Shown here: piece by piece, positions 3,437-55,554 of the stretch
How the letters are laid out: each line of letters opens with the position of its first letter
Position numbering within the stretch: position 1 is the first letter of the stretch
Origin: Blastococcus sp. Marseille-P5729
GTDB lineage: Bacteria > Actinomycetota > Actinomycetes > Mycobacteriales > Antricoccaceae
Direction: 5' to 3'
Assembly: GCF_900292035.1 (NCBI RefSeq)
Contig: NZ_OMPO01000002.1
Span: 558,001-622,000 of the forward strand
Length of the DNA: 64,000 nt
Position numbers and translations under genes: made by a program
Notes under the pieces: model-generated
The model's database searches: none
The model's input: only the letters and a program-made list of their open reading frames with translations
What the model was told of the DNA's origin: nothing

Positions 3437-4003
3437 CTAGTCGTCGGGACTCCCGGGCCCCCAGGACGGCGTGTCCTGCAGGGTTGTCCAGTGCTGGCGG
3501 CGCGCCTCGTACATCGCGATGGACGCCGCGGTCGCGACGTTCAGCGAGCCCACGCGTCCCACCTGCGGCAGGAACCCGACCGCGTCGCTGGCAGCGAGCG
3601 CGGCCGCCGTCACGCCCCGGTCCTCGTGCCCGAGCAGGAGCGCGACCGGACGCCGTAGGTCGAGCTGGTGCATCGGCGTCGACTCGTCGGCGAGCTCGAC
3701 GGCCACCACGTGGTAGCCGTCAGCCTGTGCCGCGGCGATGGCGGACGGTCCGTCGTCGTGCATGCTCCACCTCAGGTAGCGGTCAGTACCGAGCGCGGTC
3801 TTCTGCGTCTTGGCCGATCGGGGTGAGGCGGTCTCGCCCGCGAGATACAGGTGGGTGACGCCGAGCGCGGCGGCGGTCCGCACGATGGCGCCGACGTTCC
3901 ATGGCGAGGCCACCGACTCGAGGACCAGCGCGAGCTCGGGTGGCCCGGTGCGCTTCCAGCTGCGGTGCAGCCGTTTCAGGTCCGTTCCGCGCAGCTGGCT
4001 CAC
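3437..4003 (-). CDS. SpoU/TrmH-family RNA 2'-O-methyltransferase
   Basis: SAM-dependent RNA ribose methyltransferase of the trefoil-knot SPOUT class, 188 aa. It lacks an N-terminal substrate-binding extension and so resembles TrmL/TrmH-like minimal enzymes. Motif 1 (VLESVASPWNVGAIVRTAAALG, positions about 27-48) contains the catalytic Asn/Arg. Motif 2 (LLLGHEDRGV) and motif 3 (GSLNVATAASIAMYE) are intact. The GTG start overlaps the stop of the upstream methyltransferase gene by four bases, so the two are translationally coupled. The exact RNA target (tRNA wobble position or rRNA) cannot be read from sequence. Confidence 0.9.
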   Translation of the reverse strand: MSQLRGTDLKRLHRSWKRTGPPELALVLESVASPWNVGAIVRTAAALGVTHLYLAGETASPRSAKTQKTALGTDRYLRWSMHDDGPSAIAAAQADGYHVVAVELADESTPMHQLDLRRPVALLLGHEDRGVTAAALAASDAVGFLPQVGRVGSLNVATAASIAMYEARRQHWTTLQDTPSWGPGSPDD

Positions 4004-4611
4004 TGCTCACCACCCCCCACCTCGAGGACTCGATAGCTCTTGCGTGACGACCGTCGCTGCACCGAGAACCCTTGGCTGGCAAGCCATCTGGCCAGAGAGT
4101 CGGCGCCGAGATGCTTGCCGACGACGAGATGGGCGACGCCGCCGTCCTCCAGCCGGTGCAGCCAGTGCAGCAGCAGCCGCTGCATCGCCGCCTTCCCGAT
4201 CCGCACCGGCGGGTTGGAGTAGATGGCCCGGAACCGGAGCTCCTCGGGCACCGCCTCGGGAGCATAGGTCGTGACGTTCCGCAGCCCGTTGCGCGTGGCG
4301 TTCGCATCGGTCAGCCCGCGGGCGCGCCCATTGACGTCGACCGCGATCACCTGCGCCGCCGGCGATCGCGCCGCGAGGGCGAGCGCGATCGGTCCGTAGC
4401 CGCAGCCGAGGTCGAGCAGTACGCCGTCCGTCGGCGGTGCCGGCGCGGACTCGAGCAGGATCCGGGTCGCGTCGTCCAGCCGCCCATGACTGAACACCCC
4501 TGCGTCGCTGGACAGCGTCAAGGCCAGGCCCGGCAGCAGGACGTCGACGTCCTTCGGGTCGCTGGGGGCCTGCGGCGTGTCGCTGAAGTAGTGGTCGCCG
4601 CCCGGTCGCAT
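4000..4611 (-). CDS. class I SAM-dependent methyltransferase, RsmC/RlmG-like small domain
   Basis: 203-aa methyltransferase. It opens with a DHYFSDTPQ segment, followed by VLLPGLALTLSSDAGVFSHG, typical of the MTS/RsmC family. The SAM-binding motif I (LLDLGCGYGPIALALAA) lies near residues 66-82, and the catalytic NPP tetrad-like motif (YSNPPVRIG) lies near 135. Enzymes of this type methylate guanine N2 in rRNA or modify tRNA; a tRNA/rRNA role fits the coupling to the SpoU gene. The start at 4611 is preceded by TACGAT with a six-base gap (leaderless). The single-domain length is shorter than E. coli RsmC, which carries a pseudo-methyltransferase duplication. Confidence 0.88.
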   Translation of the reverse strand: MRPGGDHYFSDTPQAPSDPKDVDVLLPGLALTLSSDAGVFSHGRLDDATRILLESAPAPPTDGVLLDLGCGYGPIALALAARSPAAQVIAVDVNGRARGLTDANATRNGLRNVTTYAPEAVPEELRFRAIYSNPPVRIGKAAMQRLLLHWLHRLEDGGVAHLVVGKHLGADSLARWLASQGFSVQRRSSRKSYRVLEVGGGEQ

Positions 4612-4617
4612 CGCTCC

Positions 4618-4623
4618 ATCGTA
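4618..4623 (-). promoter_or_regulatory. -10 box of the methyltransferase operon (leaderless)
   Basis: TACGAT on the minus strand, six bases before the ATG at 4611, in the 35-bp gap after the lipoprotein gene. Confidence 0.5.
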
Positions 4624-4646
4624 GGCGAGCCGGCTGCGGCCGCGAC

Positions 4647-5789
4647 TCAGTCCGGCAGCTCGATCTCCAGGAAGAACGGCCGGTAGAGCGCGGGGTCGGC
4701 GAGCACGATCGACAGATCGTCGGAGTTGCGAGAGATCGACACGACGACCGAGTCGGGCTTGGCCAGCAGGTCGGGGTGCGCAATCGGCATGTAGACCCAC
4801 AGGTGCTTGTCGGGCTGGGAGGGGATGTAGGCCAGCGGATCGCTGGCGACGAACGGTCCCTGCGGCTGATCGCCCACCCAGGCGATCAGGTCCTCGCCCA
4901 GCGCCTCGTCCCGCTTGCTGATCAGGTAGGTCTTGCCGTCGCGGAAGACCACCGAGAAGGTCTGTGACACCCCGCCCACCGGCTGCACCAGGACCGCGGC
5001 CTGGGCCGGGTCGGGCTGCCACTCGACGCCGTTCCAGTAGGTCCACTTCTGCTGGTGCGGGACGTCGGCGACGGGCGCCCGGGCGACCTGCACGCCGTAC
5101 CCGAAGCTCGAGCCGTCGGCAGGCTTGAAGGTCCCGTAGAGGTAGACGAAGCCGTCGGGGCCGATCGCGGACGCCGCACCCCACGTCGGGTTCGCAGGCG
5201 AGGGATTGTCCGGACCGAGGTCGGTGACCTCGATCAGCTCCGGCAGCTCGCCGGGTTCGACCCGGAACACCGCGATCGCGGGACCAAGCGTCTGGAAGCT
5301 CCATGCGTTGCCGGATCCGGTGACCCGTTGCGCCATGACGCCGACGAGGTCGAAGCCCTTCTGCGGTACGACGGCGATCGACATCGGCCAGTAGCCGACC
5401 GTCGCGTCGCGGTCCGGGATCACTGCGCCGCCGTCGGGCGGCACCACCGGGCGCAGGCACCCGGGCTCGAACATCAGCATCGAGTTGCGCACCATCCGGT
5501 CACCGCCGACCTCGGCGCCGCGGACCGTGTCGCCGAAGACCCAGATCGACCGCCCGTCGGACAGTGGCACGCTCGCGCCCACGTCGGCGCCGAGGAAGTA
5601 CGGCGACGCCTTCGTCGTGGCGATCTGGGTGTTGAGCTGGTCGATCGAGCCGACGGGGTCGAAGGGCACACACTGCACCACCGGACCGATCGGCTCCGTG
5701 GTGTCGTCGATGCTCGTACACCCCGAGACCAGCGTGGCGAGGACGCAGGCGGCAGCCCACACCCGACCCCTGGGCCGCAGGCGCACCAC
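4647..5789 (-). CDS. secreted lipoprotein with DUF4185/beta-propeller-like domain
   Basis: 380-aa predicted lipoprotein. It has a basic N-terminus, a hydrophobic stretch and a lipobox LVSGC with Cys near residue 24, so the mature protein should be anchored on the outer face of the membrane. The remainder resembles the five-bladed-propeller-like DUF4185 family found in actinobacterial cell-wall proteins (repeated GDT, WVFGDTVRG, YLYGTF and ISKRDE patches). No catalytic assignment is possible. The GTG start directly abuts the TGA of the diacylglycerol kinase gene, so it is the last gene of a three-gene operon after the FAD oxidase and the lipid kinase. Function is unknown; a glycan- or lipid-related role is only suggested by its neighbours. 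Confidence 0.8.
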   Translation of the reverse strand: MVRLRPRGRVWAAACVLATLVSGCTSIDDTTEPIGPVVQCVPFDPVGSIDQLNTQIATTKASPYFLGADVGASVPLSDGRSIWVFGDTVRGAEVGGDRMVRNSMLMFEPGCLRPVVPPDGGAVIPDRDATVGYWPMSIAVVPQKGFDLVGVMAQRVTGSGNAWSFQTLGPAIAVFRVEPGELPELIEVTDLGPDNPSPANPTWGAASAIGPDGFVYLYGTFKPADGSSFGYGVQVARAPVADVPHQQKWTYWNGVEWQPDPAQAAVLVQPVGGVSQTFSVVFRDGKTYLISKRDEALGEDLIAWVGDQPQGPFVASDPLAYIPSQPDKHLWVYMPIAHPDLLAKPDSVVVSISRNSDDLSIVLADPALYRPFFLEIELPD

Positions 5790-6695
5790 TCAGCGAGCCT
5801 TGCGCGGGTGCGGGACGATGAGGCGGACGGCGCCGGGCAGCACCCCGACCTCCAGCGGTACGTCGGCGATCCGGTCGCCGTCGGCGAACATCGCCATCCG
5901 TCGCCGGTGCGCGCGGTTCCCGCCGTCGATCGACTCGATGCGTACGGTGCGTACCCGCTCGGTGCGTACCCGCGGGTTGTCGACGTGGGTGCCGTCGAAC
6001 ACCGACGGCAGGGACCGCAGGAACTCGAGCTTGCTGCCGTCCGCGATCGTGACGAGATCGAGCAGGCCGTCATCCACCTCGGCGTCCGGGCAGATCCTCA
6101 TGCCGCCGCCGTAGCGACCGGTGTTGCCGACGACGACCGACCAGCCGTGGACCTCGCGCGGCTGGCCGTCGACGACGAGGCCGAAGGTGACAGGTTTCCA
6201 CCGCGCGAGCGCCCGCAGCGCGCCCGCCGCGTAGACGACCTGGCCGCGCAGCCGGGAGGAGTTGGCGTTGTCGTTGGCGATCGAGTCGAACCCGATCGTG
6301 GCCACGCCGAGGAACACGCGTCCGTCGACGGCGCCGGCGTCGACCCGCCGCTCGACGTAGGTGGGGATGGCCAGCACCGCCTTCGGCAGGTCCAGGTGGA
6401 CGCCGAAGTACCGGCACAGGTCGTTGCCCCGGCCGCCGGGCAGCGGGATCAGCGCCGCGCCGCTGCGGACGGCTCCGCGGGCAGCCTCGGCGATCGTTCC
6501 GTCGCCACCCACCACCGCGACTCGATCCTGCTCTGAGAGGCCACCGACGTAGGTCTCGGCGTCACCGGGTGCGGTGGTCACGTGAGTGCGCACCTCGTGC
6601 CCCTGGGTACGCAGCATGCGCTCGACCAGGGCGCGGCGCTTCTCCCCGCCATGCCGGGACAGCGGGTTGACCAGCAGGTGCAGGGGGCTAGCCAC
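5790..6695 (-). CDS. diacylglycerol/lipid kinase, YegS/DagK family
   Basis: 301-aa lipid kinase that phosphorylates diacylglycerol or a related lipid using ATP. The family hallmarks are visible: LLVNPLSRHGG near the N-terminus, the nucleotide-binding GGDGTIAEAARG near residues 63-74, and LPGGRGNDLCR, the family GTgNDfAR motif, near 86-96. The C-terminal beta-sandwich domain has the usual DGLLDLV segment. The GTG at 6695 is preferred over upstream in-frame codons because homologues begin at the SPLHLLVNP strand and because it overlaps the oxidase stop by eight bases. In Mycobacterium, a similar kinase (Rv2252) sits beside an FAD oxidase (Rv2251) near glpD1, as here. Confidence 0.92.
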   Translation of the reverse strand: MASPLHLLVNPLSRHGGEKRRALVERMLRTQGHEVRTHVTTAPGDAETYVGGLSEQDRVAVVGGDGTIAEAARGAVRSGAALIPLPGGRGNDLCRYFGVHLDLPKAVLAIPTYVERRVDAGAVDGRVFLGVATIGFDSIANDNANSSRLRGQVVYAAGALRALARWKPVTFGLVVDGQPREVHGWSVVVGNTGRYGGGMRICPDAEVDDGLLDLVTIADGSKLEFLRSLPSVFDGTHVDNPRVRTERVRTVRIESIDGGNRAHRRRMAMFADGDRIADVPLEVGVLPGAVRLIVPHPRKAR

Positions 6696-8370
6696 GCGCG
6701 CCTCCCTCCATGAGCTTGCCGGGGTTGAGGATGCCGGCCGGGTCGAGCGTCGCCTTCGCGGCGCGCAGCACATCGAGCGCGAGCCCGCCGGTCTCGGTGA
6801 CCCAGCGGCCGGCGCGGGTGAGCTCGGCGGAGAGGTAGGGGGCATGGTCGGTGCCGACGGCGTGATGGTGGGTGATGGTCGCGCGGGTCGCCACGATCGC
6901 CTCGGACGCCGCCTTCTTCACCCGCTCCCACTGCGCGATTCCGTCCTCCTCGGCCTTCGCCAGGAAGGTGTAGTACAGCGACGCCCCGGTCTCGTAGACG
7001 TGCGAGATGTGGCACTGCACCGAGGCGTCCGGGCCGAGCGCTCCCTGGATCGCGGCCTGCACGGCGCGGTAGGTGGTCATCGACTCGCTCCAGGACTGCG
7101 CGGTCTCGAGCGTCTCGACGAGCATGCCGCGGCCCATGAGGTGATCGCGGAGGTAAGGCGCGTTGAAGCGGCCCTTCTCCCACGACCGCGCGGCCACCGG
7201 ACCGAGCCGGACGCCGCCGCGCCGGGTGAAGACGGACTCGCACCGGTGCTTGCCGAAGCCGGTGGACTCCTCGTCGCCCTCCCACAGGAAGATGCCGATG
7301 GCGGGGTTCGCCATGCCTCGCAGTGCGGCGTACCGCTGCACGAACGACGCCTTGGCGCCGCCGATCTGCGCGAGCGCGACACGCGTCTCCTCCTCGTCGG
7401 AGAGCCGGCAGACCGCGGGCATCTGCCCCGGTCCACACTCGTGCATGGCGTCCCGCAGCGCCTCACGGCCGATGTCGAACGACTCGAACAGCCAGGCGGC
7501 GTACCGCTTGTGGGCGGGCGCTCGGTGGATGCGCATGGTGACCTCGGTGATGATGCCGAGGGTTCCCTCGCTACCGATGACGAGGTCGATCAGCCGGGGC
7601 CCGGCAGCGGACGCCGGGGCCGAGCCGCCGAGGTCGAGGACGCCCTGCGGCGTGACGACGCGGACCCGCTCGACCAGCTCGTCGGAGCGTCCGTATCCGG
7701 TGGAGGCCTGGCCCGCGGAGCGGGTTGCTACATAGCCACCGATCGATGCTTGCTGGTGGCTCTGCGGATAGTGACCGAGAGTGAACCCGTGCGGCTGCAG
7801 AGCCGCCTCGAGCGCTGGGCCGCGCATGCCGGCACCGAAGGTCGCGCGGTGGTTCTCCGGCTCGATCGAGGTCATCTCGGCGAGGTGGCGGAGGTCGACG
7901 CTGATCACCGCGTCGTGCTCACCGGACAGCGGCTTGAGCCCACCGACGACGCTGGTGCCTCCGCCGTACGGGACGACGGCGATCCCACGCTCGACGCACG
8001 CCGCCAGGAGCGCCACCACCTCGGCCTCGTCGTGCGGGCACACGACGGCGTCCGGAGCCTCGGCGCAGTCGCCGGCGCGGCGGCGGTAGAGGTCGGGGTA
8101 GCTCTTGCCCCCGGAGTGCGCGGCGCGCTCCTCACGATCGGTGAGCACCTCGCAACCTGTGGCCCGCAAGGCCTGCAGAGCGTCGTCGGTGAGCCGAGGC
8201 TCGGGGATCCGCACATCGTCGAGACCGGCCGGCGGCTGCTCGTGCAGGCTCGCGCCGAACTCGTCGGCCAGCATCTGCGCCACGTGCTCCGGGACGCCGT
8301 GCGAGCGCGCGGGGTCACCCCAGCCCCACCAGACGGACGGCGGCACGACCTCGGTCAGGTTCTCGTTCAT
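6688..8370 (-). CDS. FAD-binding oxidase, alkyldihydroxyacetone-phosphate synthase-like
   Basis: 560-aa flavoprotein of the PCMH/VAO type. The FAD-binding half shows VVPYGGGTSVVGGL near residues 123-136, HYPQSHQQASIGGYVATRSAGQ further on, and LVIGSEGTLGIITEVTMRI, all as in alkyl-DHAP synthase and the mycobacterial Rv2251/Rv3107c group. The C-terminal half has the HHHAVGTDH motif with the histidine cluster of the ADPS active site. Alkyl-DHAP synthases exchange the acyl chain of acyl-DHAP for a fatty alcohol to start ether lipids; whether this one does so is an inference. A Shine-Dalgarno AGGAG precedes the ATG. First gene of an operon with the lipid kinase and lipoprotein, divergent from glpD. 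Confidence 0.88.
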   Translation of the reverse strand: MNENLTEVVPPSVWWGWGDPARSHGVPEHVAQMLADEFGASLHEQPPAGLDDVRIPEPRLTDDALQALRATGCEVLTDREERAAHSGGKSYPDLYRRRAGDCAEAPDAVVCPHDEAEVVALLAACVERGIAVVPYGGGTSVVGGLKPLSGEHDAVISVDLRHLAEMTSIEPENHRATFGAGMRGPALEAALQPHGFTLGHYPQSHQQASIGGYVATRSAGQASTGYGRSDELVERVRVVTPQGVLDLGGSAPASAAGPRLIDLVIGSEGTLGIITEVTMRIHRAPAHKRYAAWLFESFDIGREALRDAMHECGPGQMPAVCRLSDEEETRVALAQIGGAKASFVQRYAALRGMANPAIGIFLWEGDEESTGFGKHRCESVFTRRGGVRLGPVAARSWEKGRFNAPYLRDHLMGRGMLVETLETAQSWSESMTTYRAVQAAIQGALGPDASVQCHISHVYETGASLYYTFLAKAEEDGIAQWERVKKAASEAIVATRATITHHHAVGTDHAPYLSAELTRAGRWVTETGGLALDVLRAAKATLDPAGILNPGKLMEGGARG

Positions 8371-49529: not shown

Positions 49530-50348
49530 ATGCCCCGATCCAGTAGCGATTCTCCGTCCCACGACTCAGTATTCGAGCTGATCGGTGACTGGAGCGGACA
49601 GCTCGTCACCACCGCCATCCACACCGGCCACGACCTACGCAGCGCGGTCGCCGATGCGATGGTGCTCGACGAGCAGACCAGATTCCGCGAAGAGGACCCC
49701 TTCACCGACCGGATCGGTGAGCGGATGCCCGCCCGGGTGATCGTGCATCGCTCTCGCTTCGAGATCGACCTGAACCGTTCCCGCGAGGAGGCCGTCTACC
49801 GCACGCCGGAGGACTGCTGGGACCTGGAGGTCTGGCGCGAGAACCCGCTCGACGAGAAGCTGGTCGAGGGCAGCCTCGAGCTGTACGACGACTTCTACTC
49901 GAAGCTGGCGGCGCGGCTCGACGAGGTCGCGGCCCGCGGGCCGTTCGTGCTGTACGACGTCCACTCCTATAACCACCGGCGGGACGGCGCCGAGGGCGAC
50001 CCTTCTCCGCAAGAGGACAACCCCGACGTCAACGTCGGCACCGGCTCGCTCGATCGGGACCGGTTCGGCCCGGTGGTCGATGCGTTCATGACAAGCCTCG
50101 GGCAGGTCGAGACCTCCACTGGGCAGATGGACGTGCGCGAGAACGTCCGCTTCAAGGGCGCCAACCTGGCCCGGTGGACGCACGAGCGCTACCCGGGCGT
50201 CGGCTGCGCCCTCGCCTTGGAGTTCAAGAAGACGTTCATGGACGAATGGACCGGCGTCCCCGACGAGGCCCGGCTCGACGAGCTGGCGGCCGCGCTGGAG
50301 AAGACGGCTGCGCCGGTACTCGAGGCACTGAAGCAGATCCGTGGATAG
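49530..50348 (+). CDS. N-formylglutamate amidohydrolase family protein
   Basis: 272-aa zinc-dependent amidohydrolase (PF05013-like). Zinc/catalytic patches seen are IHTGHDLR near residues 31-38, RSRFEIDLNRSREEAVY near 73-89, and VLYDVHSYNHRRDG near 135. The C-terminal part contains LALEFKKTFMDEWTG. The known family reaction hydrolyses N-formyl-glutamate or other N-acyl amino acids. The stop overlaps the start of the DUF1704 gene by eight bases. First gene of a three-gene operon. The ATG at 49530 lacks an obvious ribosome-binding site. Confidence 0.85.
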   Translation: MPRSSSDSPSHDSVFELIGDWSGQLVTTAIHTGHDLRSAVADAMVLDEQTRFREEDPFTDRIGERMPARVIVHRSRFEIDLNRSREEAVYRTPEDCWDLEVWRENPLDEKLVEGSLELYDDFYSKLAARLDEVAARGPFVLYDVHSYNHRRDGAEGDPSPQEDNPDVNVGTGSLDRDRFGPVVDAFMTSLGQVETSTGQMDVRENVRFKGANLARWTHERYPGVGCALALEFKKTFMDEWTGVPDEARLDELAAALEKTAAPVLEALKQIRG

Positions 50349-51513
50349 AAAAGGGACGACACTCTCTGAGCACGACCTGCAGATCGACGCCCAGCTGGCA
50401 GAGCTCGCGGGCAGTTTCCAGTTCCTGCTCGGCGTGTCGCCGACCAACGCCGATCACTTCCGGGACGAGTTCGTCGCCGGCAAGCTCACCGAGCCGGACT
50501 TCGACTACCGTCCGCTCGCGATCGACCCGGCAGAGCTCAAGCGGCGGCTGGCGAGGATCGACGTCTCGCAAGTCGAGGACAGCACGCTGGGCAGCCTGCT
50601 GCGCGCCAAGCACCATGAGATCGAGCTGCAGCTCGACATGCTCGAGGCTCGCTGCACGGAGGACTTCCTGACGTTGAGCATCGAGCTGTACGGCGCGATC
50701 ACCCCGACGCTGCGCAGGCAGGCGGAAGGAGTGCTGCAGGCAGTCAGCGCACCCTCGCCGAAGCAGAACGTCCTGAACGCCCATGAGTTCCTAGACATGG
50801 CCTGCGACGAGCTCAACCGCTACCGGGCCGAGGCGCCGGGAATCGACGTGGACGCCGAGATCCGCGACGACGTGGTCGGCGTGATGGTCTCGGGCAACAT
50901 GCTGCTCATCGGAGCCGACCTTACGGTGACCGGTCAGCGCGCGTACGCCCTGCTGCAGCACGAGGTCGGCACGCACCTGGTCACCCAGATCAACGGGGCC
51001 GACCAGCCGATCACCTGCCTGGGAACGGGGCTGGCCGGCTACGACGAGACCCAGGAAGGTTTGGCCGTCCTCGCCGAGATCGCCTGCGCGGGCCTGACTA
51101 CCGCGCGGCTGCGTCAGCTCGCCGGCCGAGTGCTGACCGCGCACCGGCGGGTCCACGGGGCGAGCTTCGTTGAGGCCTTCCAGGCGCTGCTGGACGACGG
51201 CTTTCAGAGCCGCGGCGCGTTCATCACGACGATGCGCGCCTACCGCGCCGGCGGGATGACCAAGGACGCGATCTACCTCCGCGGGCTGGTCGACCTCCTG
51301 GGGCACCTCCGCAACGGCGGCCCTCTTGAGCTGTTGTGGCGCGGCAAGTTCGCCCTTGAGGATCTCCCGCATATCGAGGATCTCGCCGAGCGCGGCATCC
51401 TCCGGCCCGCTTTGGTACGACCGCACTATCTGGAGGATCCGAAGAGCACCACCCGCCTCGTCGAGGCGGCACGGGTCACCGACCTGACAGCCCTCACTCA
51501 AGGAGCAGCATGA
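50341..51513 (+). CDS. DUF1704 (QEGLA-motif) metallopeptidase, MATCAP-like
   Basis: 390-aa protein of the family annotated 'flavohemoglobin expression-modulating QEGLA motif protein'. A zinc-site HEVGTH at residues 207-212 and QEGLAVLAE at 238-246 make an HExxxH...E metallopeptidase. Eukaryotic relatives are the tyrosine carboxypeptidases MATCAP, which suggests a C-terminal amino-acid or peptide-bond hydrolase. An N-terminal helical part (about 1-150) is family-typical. The GTG start overlaps the amidohydrolase stop, and its own stop overlaps the ATP-grasp start by ATGA. The substrate is unknown. Confidence 0.85.
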   Translation: MDRKGTTLSEHDLQIDAQLAELAGSFQFLLGVSPTNADHFRDEFVAGKLTEPDFDYRPLAIDPAELKRRLARIDVSQVEDSTLGSLLRAKHHEIELQLDMLEARCTEDFLTLSIELYGAITPTLRRQAEGVLQAVSAPSPKQNVLNAHEFLDMACDELNRYRAEAPGIDVDAEIRDDVVGVMVSGNMLLIGADLTVTGQRAYALLQHEVGTHLVTQINGADQPITCLGTGLAGYDETQEGLAVLAEIACAGLTTARLRQLAGRVLTAHRRVHGASFVEAFQALLDDGFQSRGAFITTMRAYRAGGMTKDAIYLRGLVDLLGHLRNGGPLELLWRGKFALEDLPHIEDLAERGILRPALVRPHYLEDPKSTTRLVEAARVTDLTALTQGAA

Positions 51514-52550
51514 AGATCGGCTTCGTCGTAAACGACGTCAGCACCGAGAAGCACGTCTACACCACCACCCGGCTCGCGATGACCGCTACTAACCTCGGCC
51601 ACGAGGCCTGGCTGATGGGCATCGGCGACTTCGCCTACGAGCCGGATGGGTCGCTCTCGGCGATGTGCCGCAAGAGCACCGCGAAGTCGTACAAGTCGCT
51701 GGAGAAGTACCTCGCCGACGTCCAGAAGGGGCGCGGTCACCAAAAGTGCATCGACGAGTTCGACGTCGTGATGCTGCGCAGCGACCCGGCGGACGACGCC
51801 GAGAGCGCTCCGTGGGCGAACAACGCGGGAGTCGCATTCGGCCAGCTGTTCGCGGCGGCCGGCGTCCTCGTGGTGAATGATCCGAACAGCCTCGCTAACG
51901 CGCTGTCGAAGGCCTACTTTCAGCACTTCCCGGAGATCGTCCGGCCGCGGACGCTGATCTCCCGGGACGAGGGCATGATCAGTGACTTCGTGAAGGACCT
52001 GGGCGGCAGGGCCGTGCTCAAGCCGCTGCAGGGCTCTGGCGGCAGTGGCGTCTTCCTCGTCAACAGCAAGGAGTCGCCCAACCTGTCGCAGATCATCGAG
52101 GCGATCTCGCGCGACGGTTACGTGGTCGCGCAGGAGTTCCTGCCCGAGGCCAAGAACGGCGACATCCGGATGTTCGTGATGAACGGCAGCCCGCTGAAGG
52201 TCGACGGGAACTATGCCGCGTTCCGGCGGGTCAGCCAGAGCGCCGACATCCGCTCGAACATGTCGGCGGGCGGCACCGCGGAGGCGGTCGAGGTCACCGA
52301 CGAGATGCTGCAGATGGTGGACGTCGTCCGCCCGAAGCTGATCGCCGACGGCATGTTCCTGGTCGGGCTGGACATCGTGGGCGACAAGCTCATGGAGGTC
52401 AACGTCTTCTCCCCCGGCGGGCTCGGTAGCTGCCAGTCGCTGTACAAGACCGACTTCGCGCCGGCGATCATCGAGGATCTCGCCCGCAAGGTAGCGATCC
52501 GGCAGCACTACGGCATCTCGCTGGACAACTCCCAGCTCGCCACCATCTAA
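51510..52550 (+). CDS. ATP-grasp ligase, glutathione synthetase/RimK-like
   Basis: 346-aa ATP-grasp enzyme. It begins MKIGFVVNDVSTEKHVYTTTRLA. The ATP-grasp core is FVKDLGGRAVLKPLQGSGGSGVFLV (adenine/phosphate loop), followed by GDIRMFVMNG and a metal-binding MEVNVFSPGGLG near residue 295. It ligates an amino group to an activated carboxylate, as in glutathione synthetase or RimK. AGGAG precedes the ATG, which overlaps the DUF1704 stop. Last gene of the amidohydrolase/peptidase/ligase operon. True GshB would need a partner GshA, which is not seen here. Confidence 0.85.
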   Translation: MKIGFVVNDVSTEKHVYTTTRLAMTATNLGHEAWLMGIGDFAYEPDGSLSAMCRKSTAKSYKSLEKYLADVQKGRGHQKCIDEFDVVMLRSDPADDAESAPWANNAGVAFGQLFAAAGVLVVNDPNSLANALSKAYFQHFPEIVRPRTLISRDEGMISDFVKDLGGRAVLKPLQGSGGSGVFLVNSKESPNLSQIIEAISRDGYVVAQEFLPEAKNGDIRMFVMNGSPLKVDGNYAAFRRVSQSADIRSNMSAGGTAEAVEVTDEMLQMVDVVRPKLIADGMFLVGLDIVGDKLMEVNVFSPGGLGSCQSLYKTDFAPAIIEDLARKVAIRQHYGISLDNSQLATI

Positions 52551-54108: not shown

Positions 54109-54661
54109 CCACGGCCGTCGAGCGAGGGAGCGCCAGCGACCGACGCCGACACGCCGCACCCTCCCGGCAGCACCACACCCCACGGTCGCCGAGCGAGGGA
54201 GCGCCAGCGACCGACGCCGACACGCCGCACCCTCCCGGCAGCACCACACCCCACGGTCGCCGAGCGAGGGAGCGCCAGCGACCGACGCCGACACGCCACA
54301 ACCTCCCGGCAGCACCACACCCCACGGTCGTCGAGCGAGGGAGCGCCAGCGACCGACGCCGACACGCCGCACCCTCCCGGCAGCACCACACCCCACGGTC
54401 GTCGAGCGAGGGAGCGCCAGCGACCGACGCCGAGACGCCGCACCCTCCCGGCAGCACCACACCCCACGGTCGTCGAGCGAGGGAGCGCCAGCGACCGACG
54501 CCGAGACGCCACACCCTCCCGGCAGCACCACACCCCACGGCCGTCGAGCGAGGGAGCGCCAGCGACCGACACCGACACGCCACACCCTCCCGGCAGCACC
54601 ACACCCCACGGTCGTCGAGCGAGGGAGCGCCAGCGACCGACGCCGAGACGCCACAACCTTC
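54109..54661. repeat. 71-bp tandem repeat array (about 7.8 copies)
   Basis: GAGCGAGGGAGCGCCAGCGA recurs at 54120, 54191, 54262, 54333, 54404, 54475, 54546 and 54617, a strict 71-bp period. The copies differ at a few sites (CCGACAC or CCGAGAC; CCGCACC, CCACACC or CCACAAC; CGGTCGTC, CGGTCGCC or CGGCCGTC). It fills the convergent gap between the thioesterase and hydrolase genes. Because 71 is not a multiple of three it leaves no sustained coding sense; the long frames crossing it are artefacts. It is not a CRISPR: there are no unique spacers. Confidence 0.95.
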
Positions 54662-54663
54662 CG

Positions 54664-55554
54664 TCAGGACCACCTGCGGATGAACTCCGCTGTCGCGGCG
54701 TTGACCTCGGTCGGGTGCGAGGCGCTGAGGAAGTGCTGGCCGTCGTCGATCACCTTCAGCTCGGCGTTCTCGGATCGAGTGAACCGCGCGATGCCGTCCT
54801 CGGCGTTGGGCACCGAGTACACCGCGTCGGCCGTACCGTGCAGCCAGAGCATCGGGCAGCGCACTTGGTCGAGGCGGCCGAGGAGGCCGTCCCGGTCGCG
54901 GAGGTTGATGCTGATGGTGCGCAGCCGCTGGCGGCCGTCGTCTCCGCGGTAGTTCTGCTGGTGGGTCTCGTGCCAGAACGTACGGTCCTCGTCGCTGACC
55001 GTGTCGCCCAACCCGGCCTCGAGGACGGCGTCCACCAGTTCGGTCGGGATCACCCAGTCGTCACCGACCTCGACGGCGAGGGAGTCGATCGCGGGCGTGC
55101 AGAACTCGATGCCGTCCCAGCAGCCGAGCTCGCGGCTGCGCTCGCTCTCGTAGTCCATCGAGGTGCCGAGCGGCACGATTCCCTTGATCCGGCTCGGCGC
55201 CAGCATCGCCATCCTGGCGGCGATCCAGCCGCCCTGCGAGGTGCCGAGCACGAAGGCGTTCTCGATACGGAGCGCGTCGAGCACCTGGATGTTGGCGATC
55301 GCGCTGTCCCAGTAGGTGAAGTCGTGTAGGCCAGCGCGGGTCAGGCCGTGGCCGTAGGGCTCGATCGCCAGCAGGTTGGCGGTCTGGGCCAGCTCGTCGT
55401 CCTCGAACTGCGGACGGTAGAGCTCGGCCGAGGTGCTGAACGAGTTGGACATGACCAAGGTGGGCAGCGTCGGGTCGTATGCCTTGCCGAGCCGGTAGCC
55501 GAGGGCGGACCCGCCGAGGTGGGTGATCTCCATGGTCTCGCTGTCGCTGGTCAT
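54664..55554 (-). CDS. alpha/beta hydrolase
   Basis: 296-aa alpha/beta-fold hydrolase. The oxyanion region is LVMSNSFSTSAELYRPQF, the nucleophile elbow GTSQGG near residue 116 carries the catalytic Ser, and the acid and His lie in LHGTADAVYSVPNAEDGI and DDGQHFLSASHP. The family includes 3-oxoadipate enol-lactonase-like and haloperoxidase-like enzymes; the substrate is unknown. The ATG at 55554 has GGGAGGA upstream. The TGA stop lies three bases from the 71-bp array. Confidence 0.9.
   Translation of the reverse strand: MTSDSETMEITHLGGSALGYRLGKAYDPTLPTLVMSNSFSTSAELYRPQFEDDELAQTANLLAIEPYGHGLTRAGLHDFTYWDSAIANIQVLDALRIENAFVLGTSQGGWIAARMAMLAPSRIKGIVPLGTSMDYESERSRELGCWDGIEFCTPAIDSLAVEVGDDWVIPTELVDAVLEAGLGDTVSDEDRTFWHETHQQNYRGDDGRQRLRTISINLRDRDGLLGRLDQVRCPMLWLHGTADAVYSVPNAEDGIARFTRSENAELKVIDDGQHFLSASHPTEVNAATAEFIRRWS

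Follow-up and report, generated by a model that had tools for sequence, protein, structure and literature searches.

The tubulin carboxypeptidases of the MATCAP kind (TMCPs) trim tubulin tails of tyrosine and also of glutamates (PMC10499314). One of them, MATCAP/TMCP1 (KIAA0895L), shares its Pfam family, its HExxxH and E-G metal motifs and, to judge from the model of an extended bacterial B, its fold with gene B, the middle one of three adjoining genes, A, B and C, that lie between positions 49530 and 52550 of a 64,000-nucleotide stretch of the genome of Blastococcus sp. Marseille-P5729 (contig NZ_OMPO01000002.1, positions 558,001 to 622,000; the whole stretch is hereafter the window). The bacterial B, however, sits in an operon with a ligase (C) and an FGase-type hydrolase (A). 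Gene A has the FGase Pfam family and the fold in common with the N-formylglutamate amidohydrolase HutG (2q7s, 2odf), but its gene setting is not histidine degradation. Gene C shares the N- and C-domain families and the ATP-grasp catalytic residues of the glutathione synthetase GshB (Escherichia coli, 1gsa), from which it differs in additional residues in the alignment (about 97-105 and 230-236 of the window's C), in altered invariant positions and in being coupled to two hydrolases. The operon for N-acetylglutaminylglutamine amide (NAGGN; AsnO, Ngg and an M42-type peptidase) is likewise small and encodes both a metallopeptidase and an ATP-grasp peptide ligase, but its GNAT-ATP-grasp ligase fusion, M42 peptidase and amidotransferase are not among the Pfam and NCBIfam matches of the triad. 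No paper describing the triad was found in the open-licence literature; Iyer et al. (2009; Mol Biosyst 5:1636) may already describe its neighbourhood.

Operons that unite a ligase with hydrolases usually mark an undiscovered peptide metabolite. On balance we favour the view that the three genes are translationally coupled and form a module complete in itself, with C building a small amide-linked peptide that A and B then take apart or mature. In such a module C would use ATP to activate a carboxylate as an acyl phosphate and would then couple it to an amino acid through the latter's amino group, in the manner of GshB, though at a substrate site that has been remodelled; B, as a zinc carboxypeptidase, would take off the C-terminal residue; A, as an FGase-type amidohydrolase, would cut the amide that links an acyl group (N-formyl-, succinyl- or gamma-glutamyl-like) to an acidic amino acid; and ligase and hydrolases together would serve one molecule, which they make and either recycle or mature. 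This view is supported by the families of the three proteins, their intact catalytic motifs, the conserved order and coupling of the genes, fusions of A with B, and an A-like domain on B elsewhere. Gene order, overlap and A-B fusion in particular make shared-product chemistry, and with it the cyclic build-and-trim chemistry that a sequence-only reading of the window had predicted, a sound expectation; substrate, direction and product are a less firm part of that prediction. We infer that one substrate serves A, B and C and that it is a small peptide and not a protein tail; our view of what the donor is, and of which way the pathway runs, carries the same reserve.

The three genes and their families

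The locus consists, as the sequence-only reading had it, of three tightly overlapping genes (Table 1). All three open reading frames (ORFs) are on the plus strand, A and B overlapping by 8 bases and B and C by 4 (ATGA); their third-position GC content is 0.87-0.94, and their codon-position GC is similar to that of the neighbouring genes. A promoter scan found nothing.

Table 1. Positions in the window, strand and family of the three genes of the triad
Gene	Positions	Strand	Product
A	49530-50348	+	272 aa, ATG start; FGase-family metal-dependent amidohydrolase (N-formylglutamate amidohydrolase-like), M14-carboxypeptidase-like fold
B	50341-51513	+	390 aa, GTG start; MATCAP/DUF1704 ('QEGLA') HExxxH zinc carboxypeptidase homologue
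C	51510-52550	+	346 aa, ATG start; GshB-like ATP-grasp ligase, PRK12458 subfamily

The family matches of A, B and C are far beyond chance. A, which had been proposed to be a zinc amidohydrolase, indeed belongs to the FGase family (PF05013, E 6e-24, 85.9 bits against a gathering cut-off of 28.9). Its AlphaFold2 model, with a predicted local distance difference test score (pLDDT) of 91.4, has as nearest solved folds 2q7s (Z 25.1, root-mean-square deviation (rmsd) 2.8, 241 aligned) and 2odf (Z 22.6, rmsd 2.7, 233 aligned); in all our fold searches, the absence of a family from the listing does not exclude that family. Across 23 aligned rows S75-R76-F77-E78, D80, N82, R83, D143, H145 and E231 are invariant and H31 and H34 nearly so. 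The window's A has no NCBIfam match at E 0.001 and so does not reach the HutG model TIGR02017 (cut-off 278.75), against which the A proteins of rhizobia and planctomycetes score merely 22-24 bits.

For B, both the predicted HExxxH metallopeptidase with a QEGLA motif and its kinship to MATCAP are borne out by the match to PF08014 (MATCAP; E 6.1e-80, 269.4 bits, gathering score 27) and by a match of the B profile to human MATCAP (7z5g, E 5.9e-16) that spans both motifs. These motifs are intact, H207-E208-x3-H212 and the first three residues of Q238-E239-G240-L241-A242 being invariant in 11 aligned B proteins. Against TIGR02421, the hypothetical equivalog named for QEGLA, the window's B scores 304.8 bits, under the cut-off of 338.65, and that of Sinorhizobium meliloti 350.8. 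In the AlphaFold2 model of a planctomycete protein that joins B to a further N-terminal domain (pLDDT 85.0), the B part matches MATCAP 7z6s (Z 24.0, rmsd 3.5, 295 aligned), and the fold neighbours that come after MATCAP include M32 carboxypeptidases. By homology to MATCAP, B may have carboxypeptidase activity towards C-terminal tyrosine or glutamate; we know of no tubulin tail in bacteria of the kind that MATCAP acts on.

C matches PF02955 (GSH-S_ATP, E 3.6e-49), PF08443 (RimK, 4e-17) and PF02951 (GSH-S_N, 3.9e-13), and it passes NF009110 (PRK12458), a subfamily named 'glutathione synthetase' (449.2 bits, cut-off 408). The ligase had been called RimK/GshB-like: the GshB-type part of this name stands, whereas a RimK-type identity was rejected (TIGR00768, 82.4 bits against 143.4). 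Nor is C an ordinary GshB, an identity rejected because C fails both canonical equivalogs, NF003573 (201 bits, cut-off 272) and TIGR01380 (187.5, cut-off 299.05), and has altered canonical-invariant positions. To compare residues, we aligned seven canonical GshBs with 47 C proteins and with eight C' proteins, as we label ligases with a C-profile score <300, using every eighth of the loci L022-L099. The ATP-grasp residues (E. coli K125, K160, R210, R225, R233, N235, D273, E281 and N283) are kept in 46-47 of the 47 C proteins, the window's included, but D9 has become N in 47/47, T285 F in 43/47, T288 G in 46/47, and R120 A or S in 45/47. At the GshB-invariant positions D9, R120, E124, T285 and T288, which we take to be substrate-binding, the window's C has N8, A129, S133, F300 and G303. 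Among the 13 actinobacterial genomes checked, C alone gives a strong PF02955 match, the others being at E 4e-18 or weaker.

The C' proteins keep some canonical positions (R120 in 8/8), and those of C'-A-B loci pass both PRK12458 and NF003573 (293.5, 284.6 and 274.4 bits against 272; 3/3 tested) and fail TIGR01380, so that C' lies between GshB and C. Rhizobia have two ligase kinds, a canonical GshB in Sinorhizobium sp. M103 (H48, 44% identical to that of E. coli) and the triad ligase on pSymB-type replicons of other Sinorhizobium (about 32-34% to E. coli GshB). Tandem paralogues of C, in two or three copies, occur in Planctomycetota (L101, L193 and L196, in the last at 3595-6730), which suggests successive additions or diversified substrates.

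Conservation and distribution of the triad

A scan of genome contigs gave 486 confirmed relatives of B, and our counts on 80 loci refer to the best 80 of these. The order A-B-C is found in 78 of the 80; in one exception (L081) the available sequence ends 202 bases from the start of B, and in the other (L096) B is matched in part only and C was not found. Between the stop of B and the start of C the gap is <=30 nucleotides in 63 of the 77 measurable loci, 56 of the 63 having a 4-base overlap. The conservation of the triad, on which the sequence-only reading had relied, thus holds among the best loci and, as described below, in other phyla. Of the two outcomes that were to count against that reading, an ordinary GshB and a triad not conserved, neither was obtained. 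A fourth operon gene was rejected: beyond A, B and C, gene families reach at most 22 of the 80 neighbourhoods, which we read as synteny within related genera.

Relatives of B are found in 1 of the 41 nearest genomes (the window's own), 6/296 genomes of its class and 6/149 of its phylum, each count including the window genome, and in 29/149 Planctomycetota and 12/198 Bacteroidota genomes searched, each draw including the seed genome. Since it is rare in close kin, intact where present and differently flanked, the triad looks horizontally mobile, and probably is.

Outside Actinomycetota, B mostly carries about 250 additional N-terminal residues (the N domain), and the triad recurs in Pseudomonadota, Planctomycetota and Bacteroidota as A-N-B-C or, reordered, as C'-A-B. 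Architectures were tallied by profile annotation, domain matches <=25 bits being dropped. Planctomycetota gave 36 PF08014 matches, with neighbours surveyed for all but G501/L145; 20 of the 33 loci tallied have B alone and 13 have it with A and/or C. The 12 Bacteroidota loci comprise four A-N-B-C, four C'-A-B, two C'-A-N-B-C, one N-B-C and one B alone. Plasmids yielded 127 records with a relative of B, and the eight neighbourhoods looked at include five A-N-B-C, one broken A-N-B-C, one C'-A-B and one B alone; the searches of phylum and class gave 10 loci (five A-B-C, two B-C, three B alone). L137, L199 and L217 each join A and B in a single ORF, both Pfam domains being confirmed in L137. At L213 the neighbours of a stand-alone-type B are an AstE/AspA hydrolase (PF24827, 3.2e-34) and a C-like ligase, which is the same ligase-hydrolase logic with a different hydrolase.

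The N domain itself has no Pfam or NCBIfam match above cut-off, its sole Pfam listing being DUF6256 (E 0.039, under its cut-off). A profile of 24 N domains aligned with the A profile (93.8% probability, E 1.7e-7, 178 columns) and gave no alignment to the B or C profiles. Its GGRLHIDR aligns with SRFEVDLNR of A, it lacks the histidine of A's DVHSYN motif, and the H31/H34 region of A is outside the alignment. In the planctomycete model, the best fold for the N domain (residues 50-254) is FGase 2q7s (Z 12.8, rmsd 3.7, 181 aligned), with carboxypeptidases close behind at Z 10-11. To judge from profile and model, the N domain is probably a degenerate, inactive copy of A.

A tree of B was built from 79 of 144 B domains, the window included, with every sixth of the loci L022-L099 used. 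The window falls inside a 47-row clade (support 100/99) in which C is nearby in 46 of the 47 rows; a 6-row clade corresponds to the C'-A-B loci; and two further clades, of 25 rows, lack A and C in 24/25.

Some of these loci show features of their own. The triad copy on a Phyllobacterium plasmid (L104) is split into several frames and is a decaying copy; in Bacteroidota a gene family of the glutamate/dicarboxylate symporter type, with one member named, adjoins the C' gene (L215, L216, L218, L219 and L221), which may be synteny; and in the planctomycete loci L213 and L199 regulator genes of the sigma-54 activator type stand beside the ligase.

Weighing the readings

Several points weigh against a build-and-trim module. 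We know of no substrate or activity for any bacterial member, and that genes lie side by side is no proof that their products share a substrate. B occurs without A or C in 20/33 Planctomycetota, 1/12 Bacteroidota, 1/8 plasmid and 3/10 phylum or class loci and can thus serve without the ligase, although these loci belong mostly to other B clades; in the window's own phylum, L015 and L016 have B-C without A. Pairwise distances among A, B and C do correlate at 0.91-0.94 (107 loci), above all 200 permutations (maximum 0.27), but these mirror-tree correlations are confounded by shared ancestry and mostly reflect it.

Glutathione or gamma-glutamyl-peptide metabolism offers another explanation, in which C would be a glutathione synthetase that has diverged, and glutathione or its conjugates would be broken down by A and B, B freeing the C-terminal residue and A the gamma-glutamyl group. 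The name of the PRK12458 subfamily is in keeping with this, and what keeps the explanation standing is the approach of C' to canonical GshB, all three C' ligases tested passing NF003573, together with a GCS2 glutamate-cysteine ligase in the window genome (NF010043, 579.7 against a cut-off of 409). GCS2 is present at full length in 17/20 triad genomes, but it is absent or a mere fragment in the other 3/20, and it is equally common without the triad (39/41 relatives, B lacking in all but the window genome). C, moreover, fails both canonical GshB cut-offs, the canonical-invariant positions D9, T285 and T288 are altered in 43-47 of 47 C proteins, and in rhizobia a canonical GshB exists besides the triad ligase. 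We therefore consider this explanation rather unlikely. A search of the host for MshA gave at best 308 bits (cut-off 462.5). Elsewhere in the window genome (L108, G000:C2, about 341,000), a GCS2 gene overlaps an M20 amidohydrolase gene, which makes another ligase-hydrolase pair.

The other two alternatives look to proteins and to osmolytes. In the former, C would add and B remove an amino acid at a protein C-terminus, as TTL and MATCAP do in the tubulin tyrosination cycle, and the modified residue would be the target of A. B is a bacterial relative of a carboxypeptidase that removes tyrosine and glutamate from tails (PMC10499314). A human MATCAP fragment scores 40-45 bits (44.9, 42.6 and 39.9) against the profiles of three ligase-linked B clades and 22-26 (22.4 and 25.6) against those of two stand-alone clades, the sets differing in size from 6 to 83, but the tree could not place human MATCAP (branch 4.17). 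The eukaryotic cycle likewise couples this carboxypeptidase to an ATP-grasp-type ligase (TTL). Against a protein-tail reading, the enzymes of the FGase family have small N-acyl amino acids as substrates, C stands closer to the small-molecule ligase GshB than to RimK, and no nearby gene for a candidate protein substrate recurs in the 80 neighbourhoods or between the window's flanks and the surveyed loci, so that we find modification of a protein tail distinctly unlikely. No less doubtful is the bolder proposal that the triad is a bacterial tail-ligation and trimming cycle whose carboxypeptidase belongs to the lineage behind eukaryotic MATCAP, C adding and B removing the C-terminal residue and A hydrolysing the acyl end; if true, the part of the tubulin cycle that removes tyrosine would trace back to the trimming step of a ligase-peptidase module in bacteria. 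The higher scores of human MATCAP against ligase-linked than against stand-alone B do offer a handle on the origin of the tubulin-tail carboxypeptidases. As for osmolytes, a module that makes and degrades a compatible-solute peptide similar to NAGGN seems very unlikely to us. NAGGN is a known operon product of a peptide ligase and a peptidase (PMC8070244), and a NAGGN synthetase gene lies elsewhere in the window genome (TIGR03103, 766 bits against 569). A plasmid B adjoins choline-betaine genes (L103) and a triad adjoins a Na+/H+ antiporter operon (L102), but the B of L103 is stand-alone and, among the 80 loci, no gene of osmotic function is recurrent. In Photobacterium damselae a QEGLA gene is 27.5-fold higher at 1% than at 3% NaCl and hence rises at low, not high, salt (PMC10308900).

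The small-peptide module that we favour is compact (three genes, with no fourth recurrent partner), widely spread and present in culturable organisms such as Sinorhizobium meliloti, and the triad is therefore directly testable.

Flanks and further observations

Upstream of the triad in the window is a weak galT-like gene on the opposite strand, and downstream a DJ-1/PfpI gene; these flanking genes (PfpI, galT-like and a thioesterase) were not matched at E 1e-8 in any other locus surveyed. An anti-phage defence system was rejected, A, B and C matching 0 PADLOC-DB families at E 0.01, and so was a phage origin, with no viral-contig match and one phage record that holds a relative of B: Pseudomonas phage Y1 (L232, 58515-69606, marked as unverified) has a gene for a MATCAP-family protein with 27.9% identity to B. 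Elsewhere in the window genome (L107, G000:C1, about 284,000), N-acetylglutaminylglutamine synthetase lies next to a sequence that matches the NAGGN M42 peptidase in part (191 bits, cut-off 397.75). Within the window, a tandem array at 54109-54673 has a 71-bp unit in 8 copies with 96% matches and is flanked by genes of the thioesterase family and of the alpha/beta-hydrolase type.

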